DNA of 64,000 bases, from contig NZ_VFVR01000003.1 of the NCBI RefSeq assembly GCF_006442205.1, positions 186,001 through 250,000 of the forward strand, given 5' to 3'. This document shows, piece by piece, positions 5,120 through 29,446 of this stretch. Source of the stretch: Mesorhizobium sp. B2-3-12. Lineage in GTDB: Bacteria > Pseudomonadota > Alphaproteobacteria > Rhizobiales > Rhizobiaceae. The notes below the pieces were generated by a model. It was not told where the DNA came from. It did no database searches and saw only the letters and a list, made by a program, of their open reading frames with translations. Numbering within the stretch: position 1 is the first letter of the stretch; every line of letters begins with the position of its first letter. The position numbers were made by a program, and so were the translations under genes.

Positions 5120-6168
5120 TGCATCGCCTGCTCTTGCTCGGCACCGGCTGGATCGCGGCCCATCATATCGAGGAGTTCGGTCAGGTTCCCGGCTGCGCCA
5201 TCGTCGCTTGCGTGGACCAGCTGCCGGGCCGCGCGGCGGCGTTCGCCGCCGCCAACAAAATAGGTACTTTCTTCGAGAGCCTCGAAGCGGCGATCGCTTG
5301 GGGCGAGTTCGATGCAGCCATCAATGCGACGCCGGACCAGGTCCACAAGGCGACGACGCTGGCCCTGCTGGCCGCCGGGAAACATGTCTTCTGCGAGAAG
5401 CCGCTGGCGCCGACCTACGCCGATGCGCTTGCGATGAGCGAAGCCGCCGAGGCGGCCGGGCTCGTCAACATGGTCAACCTGACCTATCGCAACACACCGG
5501 TGATCCATGCGGCGCGGCGCATGGTGGAGGCCGGCGAGATCGGCGAGCTGCGCCATGTCGAGGCCAGCTACAGGCAAAGCTGGCTGGTCAGCAAGTTCTG
5601 GGGCGATTGGCGGGTCGACGACAAATGGCTGTGGCGCCTGTCGGGCCGACACGGTTCGACAGGTGTTTTGGGCGATGTCGGCATCCATATCCTCGACTTC
5701 GCGACCTATGGGGCGGCCGAGGATATTGTCTCCCTGCATGCCGATCTGGTGACGTTTCCGAAGGCCGAGGGCGACCGCATCGGCGATTATGTGCTCGACG
5801 TCAATGACAGTCTGGCGATAACGGCGCGGCTCAGGTCAGGCGCGCTGGCCACGATCATGGCCAGCCGCTACACGACAGGCCATGGCAATGATCTGTCGCT
5901 GGCCCTACACGGCACCAAGGGCGCGATCAAGGTCGAGACCGATGGCAAGGTTTCGCGACTGTCCGCTTGCCTGGGCGACGACGTCCATCAGCACCGTTGG
6001 CGAACGTTGACGCCGCCTGACGTCAAACACAATGCCCGGCGCTTCGCCGATGCGCTGGACGCGGGACAGAACGGCGATCCGTCGTTCCGGCGCGCCGCCG
6101 AGATGCAGAAGCTGATCGACGCGGCCTTCCAAAGTTCGGCGGCCAAGCTGCCGGTCTCGATCGCTTGA
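5119..6168 (+). CDS. thuB: Gfo/Idh/MocA family oxidoreductase, ThuB-like
   Basis: This 349-residue NAD(P)-dependent sugar dehydrogenase has an N-terminal Rossmann motif (GTGWIA, 8-13) and the family signature CEKPLA at 92-97. Pairing with ThuA by a one-base TGATG overlap is the arrangement seen for thuA-thuB, where the two proteins act on trehalose, sucrose or related disaccharides by forming and processing 3-keto sugars. The family role is known; the exact substrate here is inferred from the partner gene. Confidence 0.85.
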   Translation: MHRLLLLGTGWIAAHHIEEFGQVPGCAIVACVDQLPGRAAAFAAANKIGTFFESLEAAIAWGEFDAAINATPDQVHKATTLALLAAGKHVFCEKPLAPTYADALAMSEAAEAAGLVNMVNLTYRNTPVIHAARRMVEAGEIGELRHVEASYRQSWLVSKFWGDWRVDDKWLWRLSGRHGSTGVLGDVGIHILDFATYGAAEDIVSLHADLVTFPKAEGDRIGDYVLDVNDSLAITARLRSGALATIMASRYTTGHGNDLSLALHGTKGAIKVETDGKVSRLSACLGDDVHQHRWRTLTPPDVKHNARRFADALDAGQNGDPSFRRAAEMQKLIDAAFQSSAAKLPVSIA

Positions 6169-22075: not shown

Positions 22076-22894
22076 ATGGAGAAAGCACGGCCCGCCAGCC
22101 TTGCATCGTCTGATACCGTGAGGGTGACCAACCCCGGCGGATCAAGCCCTTTCATCCTGACCTGCGACCACGCTTCCAATTTCCTGCCGCCCGAATTCGG
22201 CACGCTCGGCCTCGCCGCAGAGGACCTGTCGCGTCACATCGCTTGGGATCCCGGCGCGCTGCCGGTTGCGCTGCGCATGGCGCGGGCGCTCGATGCGACG
22301 CTGGTCGAGACCCGCGTTTCGCGGTTGGTCATCGACTGCAACCGGCCGCTCGACGCGCCGGATCTGGTGCCGCCGGTCAGCGAAACCACAGCCATACCGG
22401 GCAATACCGGTTTGTCGGAAAAACAGCGCGCGGCGCGGGTCGCCCTGTCCTGGCAGCCGTTTCATGGCACCATCGAGCGCATTGTCGAAGACCGGCTGGC
22501 GCGCGGTCAGGAGACGCGGCTGGTTTCCGTCCATTCCTTTACGCCGGTCTACAAGGGCCACAACCGGCCCTGGCATATCGGCATCATCCATGACGAAGAC
22601 CGCAGGTTGGCGAAGCCGCTGATTTCGGCGCTGCAACGGCTTGCCGGGGTCACGGTCGGGGTCAACGAACCCTATTCGCCCGCCGACCGCGTCTATTTCA
22701 CGCTGGAGCGGCACGCGCGTTCGCGCGGCTTGCCCTGCGCGATGATCGAAATCCGCAACGATGAAATCTCCGGCGAAACCGGGCAGCGGAAATGGGCGGA
22801 TCTGCTCACCGGCATTTTTTCGGATCTGGAACCAGAGGAGGCCACGCGGCCCAGATCGCATTCAGTCAGAAAGTCAGTCCAATCGGCCAGCTGA
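22076..22894 (+). CDS. N-formylglutamate amidohydrolase-family protein
   Basis: A 272-residue zinc hydrolase with the family start TCDHASNFLPPEFGTLGL near residues 28-45. Members hydrolyse N-formylglutamate or related N-substituted glutamates. Neither a hut operon nor histidine genes are near; instead it heads an operon with a permease, a GS-like ligase and two alcohol/aldehyde dehydrogenases. It could therefore split a gamma-glutamyl product to glutamate plus an amino acid. A second paralogue is at 55157. Confidence 0.85.
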   Translation: MEKARPASLASSDTVRVTNPGGSSPFILTCDHASNFLPPEFGTLGLAAEDLSRHIAWDPGALPVALRMARALDATLVETRVSRLVIDCNRPLDAPDLVPPVSETTAIPGNTGLSEKQRAARVALSWQPFHGTIERIVEDRLARGQETRLVSVHSFTPVYKGHNRPWHIGIIHDEDRRLAKPLISALQRLAGVTVGVNEPYSPADRVYFTLERHARSRGLPCAMIEIRNDEISGETGQRKWADLLTGIFSDLEPEEATRPRSHSVRKSVQSAS

Positions 22895-22916
22895 GAATCA
22901 AAACAGGGGACTTCCA

Positions 22917-24473
22917 ATGGCAGCACCGGGTTATACAGACGTCGACAAGGCGGAGGACGTAAAGGCCCTCCACAGCATGGGCTACGCCCAGGAACTGGAG
23001 CGGCGTCTCAGCCGCTTTTCGAACTTCGCGGTTTCCTTCTCCATCATCTGCATCCTGTCGGGTGGCATCAATTCGCTGGCTCAGGCAACCTCCGGTGCCG
23101 GCGGCATTGGCATCGGCATCGGTTGGCTGGTCGGCTGTTTCATCTCGCTGACCTTCGCGGTCGCCATGTCGCAGATCAGCTCGGCCTATCCGACGGCCGG
23201 CGGCCTCTATCACTGGGGCTCGATCCTCGGCAATCGCGGCACAGGCTGGGTGACCGCCTGGCTCAACCTGCTCGGCCTGATCACCGTGCTCGGCGCCATC
23301 AATGTCGGCACCTGGACGTTCTTCGTCGGCGCCTTCGGACCGGCGCTCGGCATCGAGGGCACGCTGACCAACCAGATGATCTTCCTGGTCGTCATCACCG
23401 GCGCCCAAGCCCTGATCAACCATTTAGGCATCAAGCTGACGGCGAAACTCACCGATTTTTCGGGCTACCTGATCTTCTTCGGTGCGATCCTGATCGCGGT
23501 GGTCTGCCTGATCTCGGCGGAACATTGGGATTTCAGCCGGCTGTTTACGTTCCACAACTACTCCGGCGATGCCGGCGGCGGGGTCTGGCCGCAGGTTTCG
23601 AACGCCTGGGTATTCGCGCTCGGGCTCTTGCTGCCGATCTACACGATCACCGGCTACGACGCTTCGGCGCACACCTCCGAGGAAACCATCAAGGCGGCTT
23701 CCTCGGTGCCGCGCGCCATGGTCATGTCGGTGATCTGGTCGGCACTGTTCGGCTATCTGTTCCTGGCTGCTTTCGTGCTGATGATCCCCAACATGGACGA
23801 CGCCGCCAAGCAGGGCTGGAACGTGTTCTTCTGGGCCTTCGACCAGCGCGTCAGCCCCGGCCTCAAGGAGTTCGTCTATCTCGTCGTGTTCATCGCGCAG
23901 CTGCTGTGCGGTCTCGCCACGGTGACCTCGGCTTCGCGCATGATCTTCGCCTTCTCGCGTGACGGCGGCCTGCCGGGCTCCTCGGCGCTCGCCAAGGTCA
24001 GTCCGACCTACCGCACGCCGGTGGCGGCGATCTGGACGGCCTCGATCCTGTCGGTGCTGTTCGTCTGGGGCTCGACGCTGGTTTCGGTTGCCGGCACCTC
24101 GGCCTATACCATCGTGGTGTCCTGCACCGTCATCTTCCTGTTCCTCTCCTTCATCGTGCCGATCGTGCTGGGCATGCTGGCCTGGGGCACGCCGAAGTGG
24201 GACAAGATGGGGCCATGGAATCTGGGTCGCGGCATCTTCATGCTGTTCGGCTTCCTGTCGATCGTGTCGATGATCCTCATCTTCATCATCGGCATCCAGC
24301 CGCCGAACGACTGGGCGCTCTACATCACCGTCGGCTTCTTCATCCTGACGGCGATCGTCTGGTTCGCCTTCGAACGCAACCGCTTCCAGGGGCCGCCGCT
24401 GGGCGACATCATCGCCGCCCGTCAGGCCGCCATCAAGGCAGCAGAGCAGGCGGTCGGCGAAACCGGCCACTGA
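22917..24473 (+). CDS. APC-superfamily amino acid/amine permease
   Basis: A 518-residue transporter with about twelve membrane segments. The APC consensus region QISSAYPTAGGLYHWGSIL lies in the first third. It resembles GABA/choline-type eukaryote-like permeases of the ACT subfamily. The neighbours suggest uptake of an amine or amino alcohol. The ATG at 22917 lies 22 bases after the amidohydrolase stop. Confidence 0.87.
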   Translation: MAAPGYTDVDKAEDVKALHSMGYAQELERRLSRFSNFAVSFSIICILSGGINSLAQATSGAGGIGIGIGWLVGCFISLTFAVAMSQISSAYPTAGGLYHWGSILGNRGTGWVTAWLNLLGLITVLGAINVGTWTFFVGAFGPALGIEGTLTNQMIFLVVITGAQALINHLGIKLTAKLTDFSGYLIFFGAILIAVVCLISAEHWDFSRLFTFHNYSGDAGGGVWPQVSNAWVFALGLLLPIYTITGYDASAHTSEETIKAASSVPRAMVMSVIWSALFGYLFLAAFVLMIPNMDDAAKQGWNVFFWAFDQRVSPGLKEFVYLVVFIAQLLCGLATVTSASRMIFAFSRDGGLPGSSALAKVSPTYRTPVAAIWTASILSVLFVWGSTLVSVAGTSAYTIVVSCTVIFLFLSFIVPIVLGMLAWGTPKWDKMGPWNLGRGIFMLFGFLSIVSMILIFIIGIQPPNDWALYITVGFFILTAIVWFAFERNRFQGPPLGDIIAARQAAIKAAEQAVGETGH

Positions 24474-24485
24474 CGTCAAGCATCA

Positions 24486-24524
24486 CCAATTATGGCCGGC
24501 ATCGTGCCGGCCATGGTTGGGGTT
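24486..24524 (+). terminator. Hairpin between permease and ligase genes
   Basis: A 10-bp stem (ATGGCCGGCA / TGCCGGCCAT, 24492-24501 and 24505-24514) with a TCG loop, flanked by CCAA/TTGG that extend pairing, and followed by GGGGTTTT. It may partly terminate or protect the upstream message, giving the permease and the ligase different levels. Confidence 0.55.
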
Positions 24525-24561
24525 TTCCCTTTCAACGACCAAGCACTGGAGTGCCACAGGA

Positions 24562-25932
24562 ATGGCCGGAAATTTCTCGTTCGATCAGTTGAAGAAAGCG
24601 GTCTCCAATGGCGAGATCGACACGGTGCTGGCCTGTATCGTCGACATGCAGGGCCGGCTGGCGGGAAAGCGGTTCCTGGCGCAATATTTCGTCGATTCCG
24701 CGCATGACGAGACGCATGGCTGCAACTACCTGCTGGCGGCCGACATCGATATGGAGCCGGTGCCGGGCTACAAGGCGGCAAGCTGGTCGAAAGGCTATGG
24801 CGACTTCGTCATGAAGCCGGACCTCGCCACCCTGCGGCGCATCCCCTGGCTGGAAAAGACGGCGCTGGTGATCTGCGACGTGCTCGACCACCACACGCAT
24901 GACGACCTGCCGCACTCGCCGCGCGCCATGCTGAAGAAGCAGGTCAAGCGGCTGCAGGAGCGTGGCTATATCGGCTATTTCGCTTCCGAGCTCGAATTCT
25001 ATTTGTTCAACGAGACCTACCATTCCGCCCGAAAGAAGCACTGGCAAGGTCTCGACACCGCGTCGCCCTATATCGGCGATTATCAGATCGGCATCACCAC
25101 CAAGGAAGAAGGCGTCATGCGCCGGCTTCGCAACGAGATGGAAGCGGCCGGTATCCCGATCGAGAATTCCAAGGGCGAGTGGGGCCCGGGCCAGGAAGAG
25201 ATCAATGTGCGCTATGCCGAAGCGCTCGACATGGCCGACCGCCACGTCATCCTGAAGAACGGGGCCAAGGAAATCGCCGAGTCCGAGGGCAAGGCGATCT
25301 CCTTCATGTCCAAATACAATTATGGGCTCGCCGGCAATTCCAGCCACATCCACAATTCGCTGTGGAGCGCCGACGGCAAGACGCCGCTGTTCTTCGACAA
25401 AAAGGCTGAATGGACGTTGTCGACGCTCGGCCAGCAATGGGCGGCCGGGCAGTTGAAATACGCCAAGGAGTTCACCTGGTTCCTGGCGCCCTACATCAAT
25501 TCCTACAAGCGCTTCCAGGCCGGCACCTTCGCGCCGACCAAGATCATGTGGAGCGAGGACAACCGCACCGCCGGCTTCCGCCTGTGCGGCGAAGGCACAA
25601 AGGGCATCCGCATGGAATGCCGCATCGGCGGCGCCGACTTGAACCCCTATCTTGCTTTCGCCGCGCTGATCGCGGCGGGCCTCGCCGGCATCGACGAGAA
25701 GCTGGATCTGCAGAAGCCCTTCGTCGGCGATGCCTATCAGGCCTCGCGCCTGCCCGAGATCCCGAAGACCCTGCGCGATGCCACCGAAACGCTGGCCAGG
25801 TCGAAGATGCTGAAGCAGGCGCTCGGCGAGGACGTGCTCGAACATTATGTCCACACGGCGAAATGGGAGCAGTTCGAATACGACCGCCGCATTACGGATT
25901 GGGAACTGCACAGGGGGTTCGAGCGGTATTAA
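24562..25932 (+). CDS. Glutamine synthetase-like gamma-glutamylamide ligase
   Basis: A 456-residue member of the GS-like gamma-glutamyl ligases (PuuA/GlnA3/GlnA4 type) rather than true GlnA. The ATP and metal motifs include SELEFYLF, WGPGQEEINVRYAEALDMAD and the NSSHIHNSLW loop. Such enzymes join glutamate to polyamines, ethanolamine or other amines. The ATG at 24562 has ACAGGA upstream; an in-frame start at 24517 overlaps the hairpin and is unlikely. The downstream dehydrogenases now lie beyond an inserted toxin-antitoxin pair. Confidence 0.88.
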   Translation: MAGNFSFDQLKKAVSNGEIDTVLACIVDMQGRLAGKRFLAQYFVDSAHDETHGCNYLLAADIDMEPVPGYKAASWSKGYGDFVMKPDLATLRRIPWLEKTALVICDVLDHHTHDDLPHSPRAMLKKQVKRLQERGYIGYFASELEFYLFNETYHSARKKHWQGLDTASPYIGDYQIGITTKEEGVMRRLRNEMEAAGIPIENSKGEWGPGQEEINVRYAEALDMADRHVILKNGAKEIAESEGKAISFMSKYNYGLAGNSSHIHNSLWSADGKTPLFFDKKAEWTLSTLGQQWAAGQLKYAKEFTWFLAPYINSYKRFQAGTFAPTKIMWSEDNRTAGFRLCGEGTKGIRMECRIGGADLNPYLAFAALIAAGLAGIDEKLDLQKPFVGDAYQASRLPEIPKTLRDATETLARSKMLKQALGEDVLEHYVHTAKWEQFEYDRRITDWELHRGFERY

Positions 25933-25948
25933 AGCTTAATGCAGCTTT
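25931..25948. repeat. Short hairpin at the end of the ligase gene
   Basis: AAAGCT (25931-25936) and AGCTTT (25943-25948) are reverse complements around a six-base loop, overlapping the ligase stop codon. The stem is AT-rich and weak. It lies just before the toxin-antitoxin promoter and may mark the left edge of inserted DNA. Confidence 0.35.
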
Positions 25949-25952
25949 AATG

Positions 25953-25998
25953 TTGACAATTTGGTTAAAGTGGCTCATGTAAAGGTTGCAAACTGCAA
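25953..25998 (+). promoter_or_regulatory. Toxin-antitoxin promoter and operator-like repeat
   Basis: A TTGACA -35 box (25953-25958) is followed at 17 bases by CATGTA, a poor -10. Just downstream TTGCA AAC TGCAA (25986-25998) is a perfect five-base inverted repeat lying between promoter and ribosome site, the usual place for a toxin-antitoxin autorepressor. Confidence 0.45.
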
Positions 25999-26015
25999 TT
26001 GTTGAGGAGTTCGCA

Positions 26016-26441
26016 ATGTCCAAATATGCGCCGCTGAAGGAATTTCTGGTCGCCCAGAATGCCGACCGTATTCCTATGTCATTCGATGAGATCGAGAGTG
26101 TGCTTAGTCTGCCGTTGCCTGCATCCAAGCAATACCCTGCGTGGTGGAGCAACAATCCGAGCAACAACCCCATGACCAGGGAGTGGCTCGAGGCTGGGTT
26201 CGAAACCGAATCCGTCAACGTAGGCACTGGCAAGCTTGTCTTTCGCCGCGTTCGCAAGATGCCGACTGGTGACGGCGCACCCGCGGTGCGTACACACCGC
26301 CACCCTGGATTTGGTTTCATGAAGGGCTTGATAGCAATCGAGGCGGGGTTTGATGTCACCAAACCGTTCGATGACGAGCCTTGGGATCGGGGCTATCTGG
26401 GCGGTGAAACTCAGCATGACAAACACGTGATGCGCAAATGA
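26016..26441 (+). CDS. Putative antitoxin: DUF7662 domain fused to a VapB-like tail
   Basis: A 141-residue protein in two parts. Residues 1-80 match the DUF7662 pattern: PLKEFL start, MSFDEIESVLSLPLP, then WW and WLEAGF, ending VFRR. After a linker, residues 94-123 (HPGFGFMKGLIAIEAGFDV then a PFDDEPW tail) resemble the C-terminal toxin-wrapping segment of some VapB-type antitoxins. GAGGAG precedes the ATG, and the stop overlaps the vapC start (ATGA). I infer that the DUF7662 part binds the operator and the tail blocks VapC. GC is lower than in the flanking genes, suggesting transfer. Confidence 0.75.
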   Translation: MSKYAPLKEFLVAQNADRIPMSFDEIESVLSLPLPASKQYPAWWSNNPSNNPMTREWLEAGFETESVNVGTGKLVFRRVRKMPTGDGAPAVRTHRHPGFGFMKGLIAIEAGFDVTKPFDDEPWDRGYLGGETQHDKHVMRK

Positions 26442-26857
26442 GTGAAGAGCCGGGCCTGCTTCTGGACACGTGCGCGGTGATATTCATCGCCAACGACAGC
26501 AAAATCGATCCTCAGGCAAGTCAGCAGATTTCGGACGCGGCCTATGATGGCCGCCTCTACCTCTCGCCGATGTCTGCATGGGAGATCGGCATCGGTGTGG
26601 CCAAGGGCCGGCTTAACTTGCCCATAGCGCCGCTCGATTTCGTAGAGCGATTCATAGAGCGCATGTCGGCAAAACTCTGCGCGATTTCGCCGGCCATTCT
26701 GATTGCGTCTTCCAACTTGCCAGGTTCGCCTCATGGCGATCCCATGGATCGAATACTGATTGCCACTGCAAGGGCTTTGGACATGGTTCTTGTGACGCGA
26801 GACGAGCCCATCCTTCGCTACAGCCGCAATGGTCATCTGCGTGCATTAGCCTGCTAA
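26438..26857 (+). CDS. vapC: PIN-domain ribonuclease toxin VapC
   Basis: A 139-residue PIN-domain protein. The acidic site is visible as Asp10 (LLLDTC), Glu49 (SAWEI), Asp101/Asp104 (GDPMDRILIATA) and Asp122 (TRDEP). VapC toxins cut tRNA or rRNA and halt translation until their antitoxin binds them. It overlaps the DUF7662-tail gene by four bases, and its TAA is immediately followed by the ATG of the aldehyde dehydrogenase gene, with no spacer. Base composition is lower in GC than the surrounding operon. Confidence 0.9.
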   Translation: MSEEPGLLLDTCAVIFIANDSKIDPQASQQISDAAYDGRLYLSPMSAWEIGIGVAKGRLNLPIAPLDFVERFIERMSAKLCAISPAILIASSNLPGSPHGDPMDRILIATARALDMVLVTRDEPILRYSRNGHLRALAC

Positions 26858-28255
26858 ATGGAGCATCTTTTGGAAACCGTAAAACTCAAATCCCCCATCG
26901 ACGGCTCGATCTATGCCGAACGTCCGATCGCGACGGACCAGGCGATCAATGCCGCGGTCGAACGGGCCAAGGCGGCGCAAGAGAAATGGGCGCGGACGCC
27001 GATCGTCGAACGCGGCAAATACATGCTGGCGATGCTGGAAGCGCTGGTCGCGATGACAGATGAGATCGTGCCCGAGATCGCCTGGCAGATGGGACGGCCG
27101 GTGCGCTACGGCGGCGAGTTCGGCGGCGTCAAGGAACGCACCAACTATATGGTCGAGATTGCCGAGCAGGCGCTGAAGTCCGTGCCGGCCTCCAACCCCA
27201 AGGACGGCTTCCGCCGCTATGTGAAGAAGGATCCGCTCGGCGTGGTCATGGTGATCGCGCCGTGGAACTATCCTTATCTGACCGCCGTCAACACCATCGT
27301 GCCCGCGCTGATGGCCGGCAACGCCGTCATCCTGAAACATGCCGCGCAGACGCTGCTGGTCGGCGAGCGCTTCGCCCAGGCCTTCGACAAGGCCGGCCTG
27401 CCCAAGGGCGTGTTCCAGAATGTCGTTCTCAACCACGCCCAGACCGAAAAACTGCTGGGTTCCGGCAAGATCGACCATGTCAATTTCACCGGCTCTGTCG
27501 CCGGCGGCCGCGCCATCGAGAAGGCGGCGGCGGGCACCTTCATGACGCTCGGCCTCGAGCTGGGCGGCAAGGATCCGGCCTATGTGCTGCCCGACGCCAA
27601 GATGGATCACGCGGTCGCCAATCTGGTCGACGGAGCGTTCTTCAATTCCGGCCAGTGCTGCTGCGGCATCGAACGCGTCTATGTGCACGAGAAGGTCTAT
27701 GACGAGTTCGTCGAGGGCTTCATCGCCGAGACCAGGAACTATGTCGTCGGCAATCCGCTGGAGCAGGCGACGACGATGGGGCCGATGGCGCAGGCGCGCT
27801 TCGCCGACCTGGTCCGCGAACAGAAGGCCGAAGCGCTGCGCAAGGGTGCCAAGGCGCATATCAACATGAAGGTCGAAAACGACAGAGCGGGTTCGCCCTA
27901 TCTGGCGCCCGAGGTCCTGACCGAAGTCGACCACCAGATGAGCGTCATGCGCGAGGAAAGCTTCGGCCCGATCGTCGGCATCATGAAGGTGCGCAACGAC
28001 GAGGAGGCGATCGCGCTGATGAATGACAGCCCCTACGGCCTGACGGCCTCGCTCTGGACGCGAGACACGGAGCGGGCAATCGCGATCGGCGATCGCGTCG
28101 AGACCGGAACGGTGTTCATGAACCGTTGCGACTATCTCGATCCGGCGCTGGTGTGGACCGGCGTCAAGGACACCGGCAAGGGCGTAGCACTCTCGGCGCT
28201 GGGCTACGACAATCTGACCCGGCCGAAATCCTTTCACCTGCGCGAAACCATCTGA
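26858..28255 (+). CDS. Aldehyde dehydrogenase (NAD(P)-dependent)
   Basis: A 465-residue aldehyde dehydrogenase with PWNYP (135-139), the general base in LELGGK (Glu234) and the catalytic cysteine in the unusual triple FFNSGQCCCG (267-269, probably Cys268). It begins directly after the vapC stop. A TTG at 26870 with GGAG six bases upstream could be the original start, giving METVKLKSP. With the GS-like ligase and Fe-alcohol dehydrogenase it would oxidise a gamma-glutamyl aldehyde to the acid. Confidence 0.9.
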   Translation: MEHLLETVKLKSPIDGSIYAERPIATDQAINAAVERAKAAQEKWARTPIVERGKYMLAMLEALVAMTDEIVPEIAWQMGRPVRYGGEFGGVKERTNYMVEIAEQALKSVPASNPKDGFRRYVKKDPLGVVMVIAPWNYPYLTAVNTIVPALMAGNAVILKHAAQTLLVGERFAQAFDKAGLPKGVFQNVVLNHAQTEKLLGSGKIDHVNFTGSVAGGRAIEKAAAGTFMTLGLELGGKDPAYVLPDAKMDHAVANLVDGAFFNSGQCCCGIERVYVHEKVYDEFVEGFIAETRNYVVGNPLEQATTMGPMAQARFADLVREQKAEALRKGAKAHINMKVENDRAGSPYLAPEVLTEVDHQMSVMREESFGPIVGIMKVRNDEEAIALMNDSPYGLTASLWTRDTERAIAIGDRVETGTVFMNRCDYLDPALVWTGVKDTGKGVALSALGYDNLTRPKSFHLRETI

Positions 28256-28273
28256 TTTTTCGAAAGACAAAAA

Positions 28274-29446
28274 ATGTCCAAGCTGATCTCCAAATGGAAC
28301 TATCCCACCACTGTCCGCTTCGGCGCCGGCCGCATCAAGGAATTGCCCGAGGTGCTGGCTGCCACCGGCATCAAGCGGCCGCTGTTCGTCACCGATCCGG
28401 GCCTGGCGAAACTGCCGGTCGTGGCCTCGACGCTGAAAATCCTCGACGATGCCAAGGTTCCCTATGGGGTGTTTTCCGAGGTGAGGCCGAACCCCGTCGA
28501 GTCGAACCTCACCGCCGGTATCGCCGTGTTCAAGAAGGGCAAGCATGACGGCGTCATCGCTTTCGGCGGCGGTTCCGCGCTCGATCTCGGCAAGCTGATC
28601 GCCTTCCAGGCCGGGCAGGTCAGGCCGGTGTGGGATTTCGAGGATGTCGGCGACTGGTGGACGCGCGCCAATTCCGACGCCATCGCCCCGATCATCGCGG
28701 TGCCGACCACGGCCGGCACCGGGTCGGAAGTCGGCCGCGCCGGGGTCATCACCAACGAGGAAACCCATACCAAGAAGGTCATCTTCCATCCCAAGCTTCT
28801 GCCGGCCATCGTCATCGCCGATCCCGAACTGTCGGTCGGGATGCCGGGCTTCATCACCGCCGGCACCGGCATGGACGCGCTGGCGCACTGCCTGGAAGCC
28901 TATTGCGCGCCTGGCTACCATCCGATGGCTGATGGCATTGCCGTGGAAGGTGTGCGGCTGGTGTTCGAGAATCTGCCGAAGGCCTTTGCCAACGGCAAGG
29001 ACCTTGTCGCTCGCGCCCATATGATGAGCGCGGCGGCCATGGGCGCCACGGCCTTCCAGAAGGGGTTGGGCGCCATTCACTCGCTGTCGCACCCGATCGG
29101 CGCGCTCTACGACACCCATCACGGCATGACCAACGCCGTGTTCATGCCCTACGTGCTCGCCTTCAACCGCGACTCCATCGAGGAGCGCATTGGCCGGCTC
29201 GCCGCCTATTGCGGCATCAAGGGCGGCTTCGACGGCTTCGCCAAGGCTGTTATCAAGCTGCGCAAGGAACTGAAGGTGCCGCACGCGCTGCCGGGCCTGA
29301 TCAAGGGGCTCGACATGGACAAGAAGCGCAAGGCGCTGATCGCCGACATGGCGGTGGTCGATCCGACGGCTGGCGGCAACCCGGTCAAGCTGACCAAGAA
29401 GGCGGCACTGACACTGCTCGAAAACGCTATCGCCGGGACGGTCTGA
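28274..29446 (+). CDS. Iron-containing alcohol dehydrogenase
   Basis: A 390-residue group III alcohol dehydrogenase. The NAD-binding GGGSALDLGK is at 98-107, TTAGTGSE follows, and metal-ligand histidines lie in GMDALAHCLEAY and the later HPIGALYDTHHG region. It starts 18 bases after the aldehyde dehydrogenase. In this operon it would oxidise a terminal alcohol such as gamma-glutamylethanolamide, ahead of the aldehyde dehydrogenase. That substrate is inferred from context. Confidence 0.9.
   Translation: MSKLISKWNYPTTVRFGAGRIKELPEVLAATGIKRPLFVTDPGLAKLPVVASTLKILDDAKVPYGVFSEVRPNPVESNLTAGIAVFKKGKHDGVIAFGGGSALDLGKLIAFQAGQVRPVWDFEDVGDWWTRANSDAIAPIIAVPTTAGTGSEVGRAGVITNEETHTKKVIFHPKLLPAIVIADPELSVGMPGFITAGTGMDALAHCLEAYCAPGYHPMADGIAVEGVRLVFENLPKAFANGKDLVARAHMMSAAAMGATAFQKGLGAIHSLSHPIGALYDTHHGMTNAVFMPYVLAFNRDSIEERIGRLAAYCGIKGGFDGFAKAVIKLRKELKVPHALPGLIKGLDMDKKRKALIADMAVVDPTAGGNPVKLTKKAALTLLENAIAGTV

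Follow-up and report, generated by a model that had tools for sequence, protein, structure and literature searches.

One question raised by the small gene pair described here is what kind of antitoxin can precede a VapC-like toxin when none of the customary DNA-binding heads is present. The modular build of antitoxins is in itself well established. The pair lies in a 64,000-nucleotide stretch of the Mesorhizobium sp. B2-3-12 genome (the window), and an initial annotation, made from the sequence alone, had proposed a toxin-antitoxin unit whose antitoxin combines DUF7662, a putative new DNA-binding module, with a VapB-like toxin-binding tail, a core reading that comparison across related loci upholds. 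We put at roughly 0.85 the probability that the pair is a type II VapBC module with DUF7662 as its winged-helix repressor head and a toxin-blocking tail, in which operator and head have been exchanged together for their XRE counterparts, a judgement that draws on sequence comparison and structural models. The gene arrangement, the linkage to PIN genes, the exchange of heads and the covariation of upstream motifs with them are features of the compared loci, from which we infer the toxicity, neutralisation, DNA binding and repression attributed to the pair.

Both reading frames lie where they had been annotated and are coupled by a shared ATGA, an overlapping start and stop (Table 1). Pfam assigns the first protein (P0001) to DUF7662 (PF24698, residues 4-77, E 1.9e-12, 47.3 bits against a gathering score of 26), in keeping with the claim that this domain fills the first 80 residues, and the second (P0002) to PIN (PF01850, E 1.6e-10). 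No other Pfam family matches P0001 at E<=1, and AbrB, RHH, Phd/YefM and HTH_3 are all absent, so that its description as an antitoxin outside the standard AbrB, Phd and RHH types stands; likewise, PHROGs and PADLOC yield no family at E<=1. Sequence searches of solved structures returned none for P0001 (E<=1) and none for P0002 (E<=0.01). The low GC content of the pair, also remarked on earlier, amounts to 0.562 against 0.638 for the window and falls in the lowest 0.5% of sampled 842-bp stretches. The nearest named relative of the antitoxin among the best 80 of 213 is that of Mesorhizobium hawassense (L084, 90% identity), and nearly all named relatives are alphaproteobacterial or bear just the label Proteobacteria.

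Table 1. Positions in the window of the gene pair, its neighbours, and its predicted domains and sites
Feature	Position	Strand	Basis or remark
Glutamine-synthetase-like (GS) gene, upstream neighbour	24562..25932	+	start set at internal ATG
Candidate operator, ATTAAAGCT-TAATGC-AGCTTTAAT	25928..25951		perfect 9-bp arms; class-A motif; overlaps GS gene 3' end
TTGACA, possible -35 element next to the 9-bp repeat	25953..25958	+	read by eye
Repeat TTGCA-AAC-TGCAA of the initial annotation	25986..25998		chance-level on its own
Antitoxin gene (VapB-type), 141 aa: DUF7662, linker and toxin-binding tail (predicted)	ATG 26016 to TGA 26441	+	
DUF7662 domain, residues 4-77, predicted winged-helix DNA-binding domain	26025..26246	+	Pfam, AF2 model, motif covariation
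Residues 37-41 (SKQYP), a contiguous run among the positions best tracking upstream DNA, to which 47 and the isolated 6 also belong	26124..26138	+	
VapB-type tail, residues 96-129, putatively PIN-binding	26301..26402	+	tail profile, single-chain model
PIN-domain toxin gene (VapC-type, predicted), 139 aa	ATG 26438 to TAA 26857	+	Pfam, conserved acids, model
Aldehyde dehydrogenase (ALDH) gene, downstream neighbour	26858..28255	+	

The fold and the conserved acids of the PIN protein suggest that it is a VapC-type nuclease. Its model has a pLDDT of 94.8 and matches VapC structures first (F-plasmid VapBC, E 1.8e-6), and the acidic residues D10, E49, D101, D104 and D122 are invariant in 72 PIN sequences.

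An antitoxin with a toxin-binding tail would be expected beside a PIN gene elsewhere; a lack of such linkage, which the initial annotation had named as refuting its proposal, did not emerge from the surveys. Among 297 genomes of the same family 27 loci matched the antitoxin, and a PIN gene lies directly downstream in 26 of them, 21 with DUF7662 heads and 5 with XRE-like heads, the sole remaining locus (L028) being a chance match within another gene. A contig scan with a pattern placed within DUF7662, outside the tail, gave 213 relatives, of which the best 80 were kept (L084-L163); the antitoxin is directly followed by a PIN gene in all 80, 79 flagged by script and one (L161) recognised by inspection, its PIN frame having been called over-long. 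The contig-scan and survey sets share some genomes (e.g. L087 and L004), and dropping identical pairs reduced 105 pairs to 95; 75 of the 80 antitoxins entered alignment A2 and 71 of the 80 PINs alignment A3. Conversely, when the PIN protein served as query against 199 genomes of the order, all 17 loci scoring >=79 bits had a tail-bearing antitoxin upstream (one of them, L066, with a head of uncertain type and no part in the unused-locus motif count below), while at 13 more distant PIN loci (L071-L083) the upstream antitoxins are, by eye, mostly Phd-like or other. A phylum-wide survey of DUF7662 itself (398 genomes) gave 26 loci, of which 8 carry the tail, each of these with a PIN gene; two others have different C-terminal extensions followed by other PIN genes, one matching PIN above the Pfam cut-off (L030) and one just below it (L033). 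Around the 16 loci with neither the tail nor a PIN-linked extension, 73 neighbouring frames (90-449 aa, no more than 450 bp away) were screened, and none matches PIN at E<=0.001. Among DUF7662 proteins PIN linkage thus tracks the tail, as the antitoxin reading requires. Around those 16 genes (L032, L034, L036, L040, L042-L053) the commonest families among the 73 frames are GGDEF (10) and EAL (5).

The tail (HPGFGFMKG...GFDV...PFDDEPW) is of low confidence or disordered in the single-chain AlphaFold2 model, and in NCBIfam it gives a weak TA_VapB match (E 0.2, residues 92-113), far under the cut-off of that family. Its relations become visible with a profile built on the tails of DUF7662 antitoxins and run over 631 frames from 25 loci: antitoxins with XRE-like heads at 10 loci rank first (E 1e-19 to 1e-11), and the profile also finds two Phd-like-head antitoxins, L228 and L229, whose toxins fall in the PIN clade of the pair (both E about 5e-12), the Pfam Phd matches of these heads being weak and below cut-off. 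More weakly it reaches the antitoxins, Phd-like by eye, of the distant PINs L075 and L082 (E 0.001), others scoring lower. The tail thus looks like the toxin-binding tail of VapB antitoxins, a resemblance asserted from the outset, and its occurrence behind heads of both XRE-like and Phd-like type, upstream of toxins from one PIN clade, supports that claim. Similarity of tails correlates moderately with similarity of PINs when the head is held constant (0.36), and the corresponding value for head and PIN with the tail held constant is 0.13; one locus with a cut PIN (L156) was omitted from these correlations and from the trees. The genome under study carries, at L083:1280-1911, a second, distant PIN gene with a 65-aa frame upstream that contains a tail-like GSLKG..VDLTKP, scores E 0.025 with the tail profile and has no Pfam match.

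How, then, did one tail come to stand behind different heads? The five XRE-like-head antitoxins of the family survey have tails 60-78% and PINs 55-72% identical to those of the window; the heads of the two that were scanned are HTH by Pfam (L018 and L020; HTH_3/HTH_26), and the remainder were assigned by resemblance. On PIN trees, branches with good support require no fewer than 3 switches of head type: the tree of 94 rows with 5 XRE members implies 3 head changes, and that of 48 chosen rows with 10 XRE members implies 5 in the best tree, 3 of them forced. The breakpoints can be located in DNA. An XRE locus (L020) and a DUF7662 locus (L007) with PINs 84% and tails 85% identical align as far as position 1410, where the GS gene ends; the alignment resumes at 1795 with the opening codon of the tail. 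A second pair, L086 (DUF7662) and L018 (XRE), aligns to 4907 and then from 5291 onward, the tail starting 19 bases on, at 5310. In both pairs compared as DNA the stretch between the blocks, promoter region and head, is unaligned, so that the exchanged piece is the promoter region plus the head. From these sequences the head and the operator region appear to swap together for an XRE head with its own motif, the tail and toxin staying in place.

If the head is interchangeable with an HTH domain, its own fold is of interest. In the AlphaFold2 model (76 sequences) residues 1-80 have pLDDT block means >90 and follow the order H-E-H-h-h-H-E-E, which is that of a winged helix (helix-strand-helix-helix-strand-strand). 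Foldseek places CodY and AbfR at the top, both weakly (best E 0.08, CodY), and VIA-align gives similarly weak matches to RepE (Z 6.0) and CtsR (Z 5.1), where Z below 8 may mean merely a common arrangement. The top fold matches are winged helices of DNA-binding proteins, with a methyltransferase ranking seventh, and on these Foldseek and VIA-align results other folds are conceivable. DUF7662 is modelled as a winged helix, with weak fold matches.

Should the head read DNA, its sequence ought to be reflected in the DNA just upstream. At the 86 loci with long enough flanks we compared the 6-mers present in the upstream 110 bp with the identity of head, PIN and tail. Given PIN and tail, head identity predicts the upstream 6-mers with a partial r of 0.26 (3553 pairs; reached in 0/300 permutations), or 0.30 over all 3655 pairs, and the upstream 6-mers show almost no relation to PIN given head (0.01) or to tail given head (-0.07). 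In control stretches the partial r of the head is 0.12 downstream of PIN and 0.09 at -330 to -220 (0.16 and 0.13 over all pairs), about half as strong as upstream, so that relatedness is incompletely controlled. Of the head columns, 41, 47, 6, 38, 40 and 37 track the upstream DNA most closely.

These positions correspond to recognisable motifs, which were picked by eye from the same 92 loci (L139 and L148, with mis-set starts, being omitted from both the k-mer and the motif counts), so that the k-mer test is the firmer one. AGCTKTA occurs upstream in 31/44 loci with P at residue 41 and in 0/35 with R (Fisher 6e-12, uncorrected for kinship). When residues 41 and 51-52 are taken together, the class P/NP has AGCTKTA in 24/25 loci, R/NV has ACACAC in 16/22 and AGCTKTA in 0/22, E/HS has ATACTA in 4/4, and XRE heads have AACGTTG in 4/5. 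The correspondence is incomplete: the class P/NV is split (n=19; AGCTKTA 7, ACACAC 10), ACACAC is found at 10/44 P loci as well as 17/35 R loci, and AACGTTG also at 3/44 P loci. Downstream of PIN there are 3 motif matches over all 92 loci. At 15 DUF7662 loci unused in the choice of motifs, with heads <=71% identical to those used and two (L217, L218) near copies, one of the motifs A-E lies within 110 bp in 11/15 and in the preceding 330 bp in 1/15; this check counts A-E alone, motif X having been loosened and motif Q added after the unused loci were viewed. The class-specific expectation failed at several of these loci: ACACAC is present in 1/3 R/NV, and GTACCTA or AGTTAC in 5/7 R/SV (6/8 including an R/SA locus), where R/SV and the other classes were derived from the 92-locus motif counts and applied by hand.

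In the window itself the initial annotation had pointed to the repeat TTGCA-AAC-TGCAA as a possible operator. The repeat is present, on its own at chance level, since arms of >=5 bp arise in 716/1000 shuffles of the 90-bp stretch, and we rejected it as the operator; the better candidate is the overlooked 9-bp repeat (Table 1), arms of even 8 bp being reached in 22/1000 shuffles of the same stretch. The M. hawassense counterpart of the shorter repeat reads CTGTA-AAC-TACAG, and because its arms differ but keep their symmetry TTGCA-AAC-TGCAA is possibly a second site.

The pair also occupies a characteristic place in the genome. GS lies upstream and ALDH downstream at 23 of the 26 family-survey loci; among the best 80 of 213 contig-scan loci both flanks were recognised at 25 and GS alone at 3 more, with neither recognised at 52 (51 flagged plus L161). 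Viewed from the slot, ALDH is present at all 50 GS loci examined (of 89 matches), and between the two genes there are 10 antitoxin-PIN pairs (4 DUF7662, 6 XRE-like), 1 tail remnant and 39 cases of neither. A genome of the same genus (G073) has an empty site with 65 bp between GS and ALDH and flanks 88-90% identical. With the slot filled in some genomes and empty in others, the whole pair is acquired or lost together at a preferred site. The proposal that it is a mobile unit holds in part: in Mesorhizobium and related genera the pair occupies one recurrent operon slot, which this same-genus genome has empty. Free mobility was rejected because P0001 has no match in plasmid (E<=1e-5) or phage (E<=1e-3) records, from which records near its own genome were possibly excluded, and chromosomal slots recur instead.

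Several observations concern these surroundings. The region 22076-29446 encodes an N-formylglutamate amidohydrolase, an amino acid permease, the GS-like protein, the aldehyde dehydrogenase and an iron alcohol dehydrogenase and ends with ABC transporter solute-binding and permease genes, thereby resembling a gamma-glutamylation catabolic operon. Copies of the pair away from the GS slot repeatedly adjoin other housekeeping genes, which look by eye like gatA/gatB, ispG and xthA (L123, L124, L134, L138, L142, L143 and others). One GS-ALDH slot (L189:1274-1483) holds a 69-aa tail-bearing frame with no head or PIN match, with an unrelated frame after it. The PIN of a record titled Frankia sp. RB7 (L147) nests among Bradyrhizobium ones, and the record is likely mislabelled or contaminated.

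The recurrent slot invites the explanation that, instead of working as a stress or addiction module, the pair is a regulator plus RNase dedicated to the GS-ALDH catabolic operon, which would account for the flanks at 23 of the 26 family-survey loci and for the GS gene upstream of 28 of the 80 contig-scan loci. We regard this as unlikely, given that the pair is missing from 39 of the 50 GS-ALDH loci, including that of the same-genus genome, and that 52 of the 80 contig-scan loci have no recognised GS or ALDH, other recurrent neighbours occurring. Nor do we favour the idea of a decaying relic whose PIN gene is inactive or non-toxic: the tail-bearing frame that stands without a PIN match in the L189 slot is what such decay might leave, but all five acidic positions are conserved without exception across 72 sequences and the overlapping frames are intact in the window and its relatives, which makes this very improbable.

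A different objection touches the head alone. DUF7662 might bind RNA, protein or a ligand, the upstream motifs following it through common ancestry alone, and both the weak fold matches and the partial correlation of control stretches with head identity could be so understood. Yet in two pairs of loci operator and head have been exchanged at sharp breakpoints with tail and toxin kept, elsewhere an HTH DNA-binding head takes that position, and the upstream signal is about twice as strong as in the control stretches, so that we think this quite improbable. Under the VapBC reading, the winged helix of DUF7662 would repress the operon by binding sites that recur in the promoter immediately before it, as the model, the motif covariation and the cassette exchange together suggest, and the C-terminal VapB-type tail would fold onto and block the PIN protein, to which the co-occurrence of the two and the presence of the same tail on different heads point.

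The use of DUF7662 extends beyond this family. DUF7662 heads with other C-terminal extensions precede other PINs at five loci (L030, L033, L220, L223, L231), and in L230 the domain is fused to HEPN_Swt1 (Pfam). A survey of the class (385 genomes) gave 19 matches, of which 6, our own included, combine DUF7662, the tail type of the window and a PIN; the remainder comprise 2 Phd-like heads with tail and PIN, 3 other DUF7662-PIN pairs, the 2 proteins L222 and L230, and 6 matches (L221, L224-L227, L232) at which the PIN profile of the window clade detects no PIN. L222 resembles the HEPN_Swt1 fusion of L230, both having a long N-terminal extension, and in genome G1104 the HEPN_Swt1 fusion is encoded close to a DUF7662-PIN pair whose tail is of another type (SREQIYD..GRLTGGP). 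Since several DUF7662 proteins lack a PIN match, the domain is not confined to antitoxins, which fits its being a portable head. More fully, we consider it probable that DUF7662 is a portable winged-helix head with a readable specificity code, in which residues 37-41 and 47, with 51-52, would set the operator class, and that it is swapped as an operator-plus-head cassette over an unchanging tail-toxin unit and reused in antitoxins bearing three further kinds of extension beside other PIN toxins (L030; L033; L220/L223/L231) and in the HEPN_Swt1 fusion (L230).

In this context the pair resembles known type II VapBC modules (Shigella/F-plasmid VapBC, FitAB) in its VapC-fold PIN, its small overlapping upstream antitoxin and a C-terminal tail without confident structure alone, and differs in having DUF7662 as head. 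Antitoxins of the Phd-type VapB plus PIN kind have a tail akin by profile (L228, L229; weakly L075, L082), whereas their N-terminal domain is unrelated in sequence. XRE-PIN pairs are among those listed in Makarova 2009 (PMC2701414); those found here share the slot, the tail and the toxin clade and differ in head and upstream motif (AACGTTG-type). Section 9 of that survey gives DUF433, UPF0175 (COG2886) and DUF104 as PIN-associated families of predicted DNA-binding antitoxins, which are separate families, and none in that section is recognisable as DUF7662 (PMC2701414). In the work on the Panacea network modular antitoxins join a DNA-binding domain to a separate neutralising part, the emphasis being on one antitoxin domain with many toxins (PMC10440598), whereas in the present case one tail-toxin unit receives different heads. 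The literature searched, which covers few subscription journals, contains no mention of DUF7662 or PF24698, and searches on antitoxin domain shuffling, PIN with Xre and Mesorhizobium VapC produced no paper pointing to DUF7662 antitoxins in its title or the opening of its abstract.

If this interpretation is correct, a Pfam domain of unknown function would acquire a role open to test, that of a DNA-binding head with sequence specificity, and a few residues would predict the operator read by each DUF7662 member. It also names a VapBC family expected to escape searches built on AbrB, RHH, Phd and XRE heads. Ultimately, because toxin and neutralising tail remain in place when head and operator are replaced jointly, these loci would constitute a natural experiment in antitoxin rewiring, in which the specificity of the repressor can change and immunity be kept.
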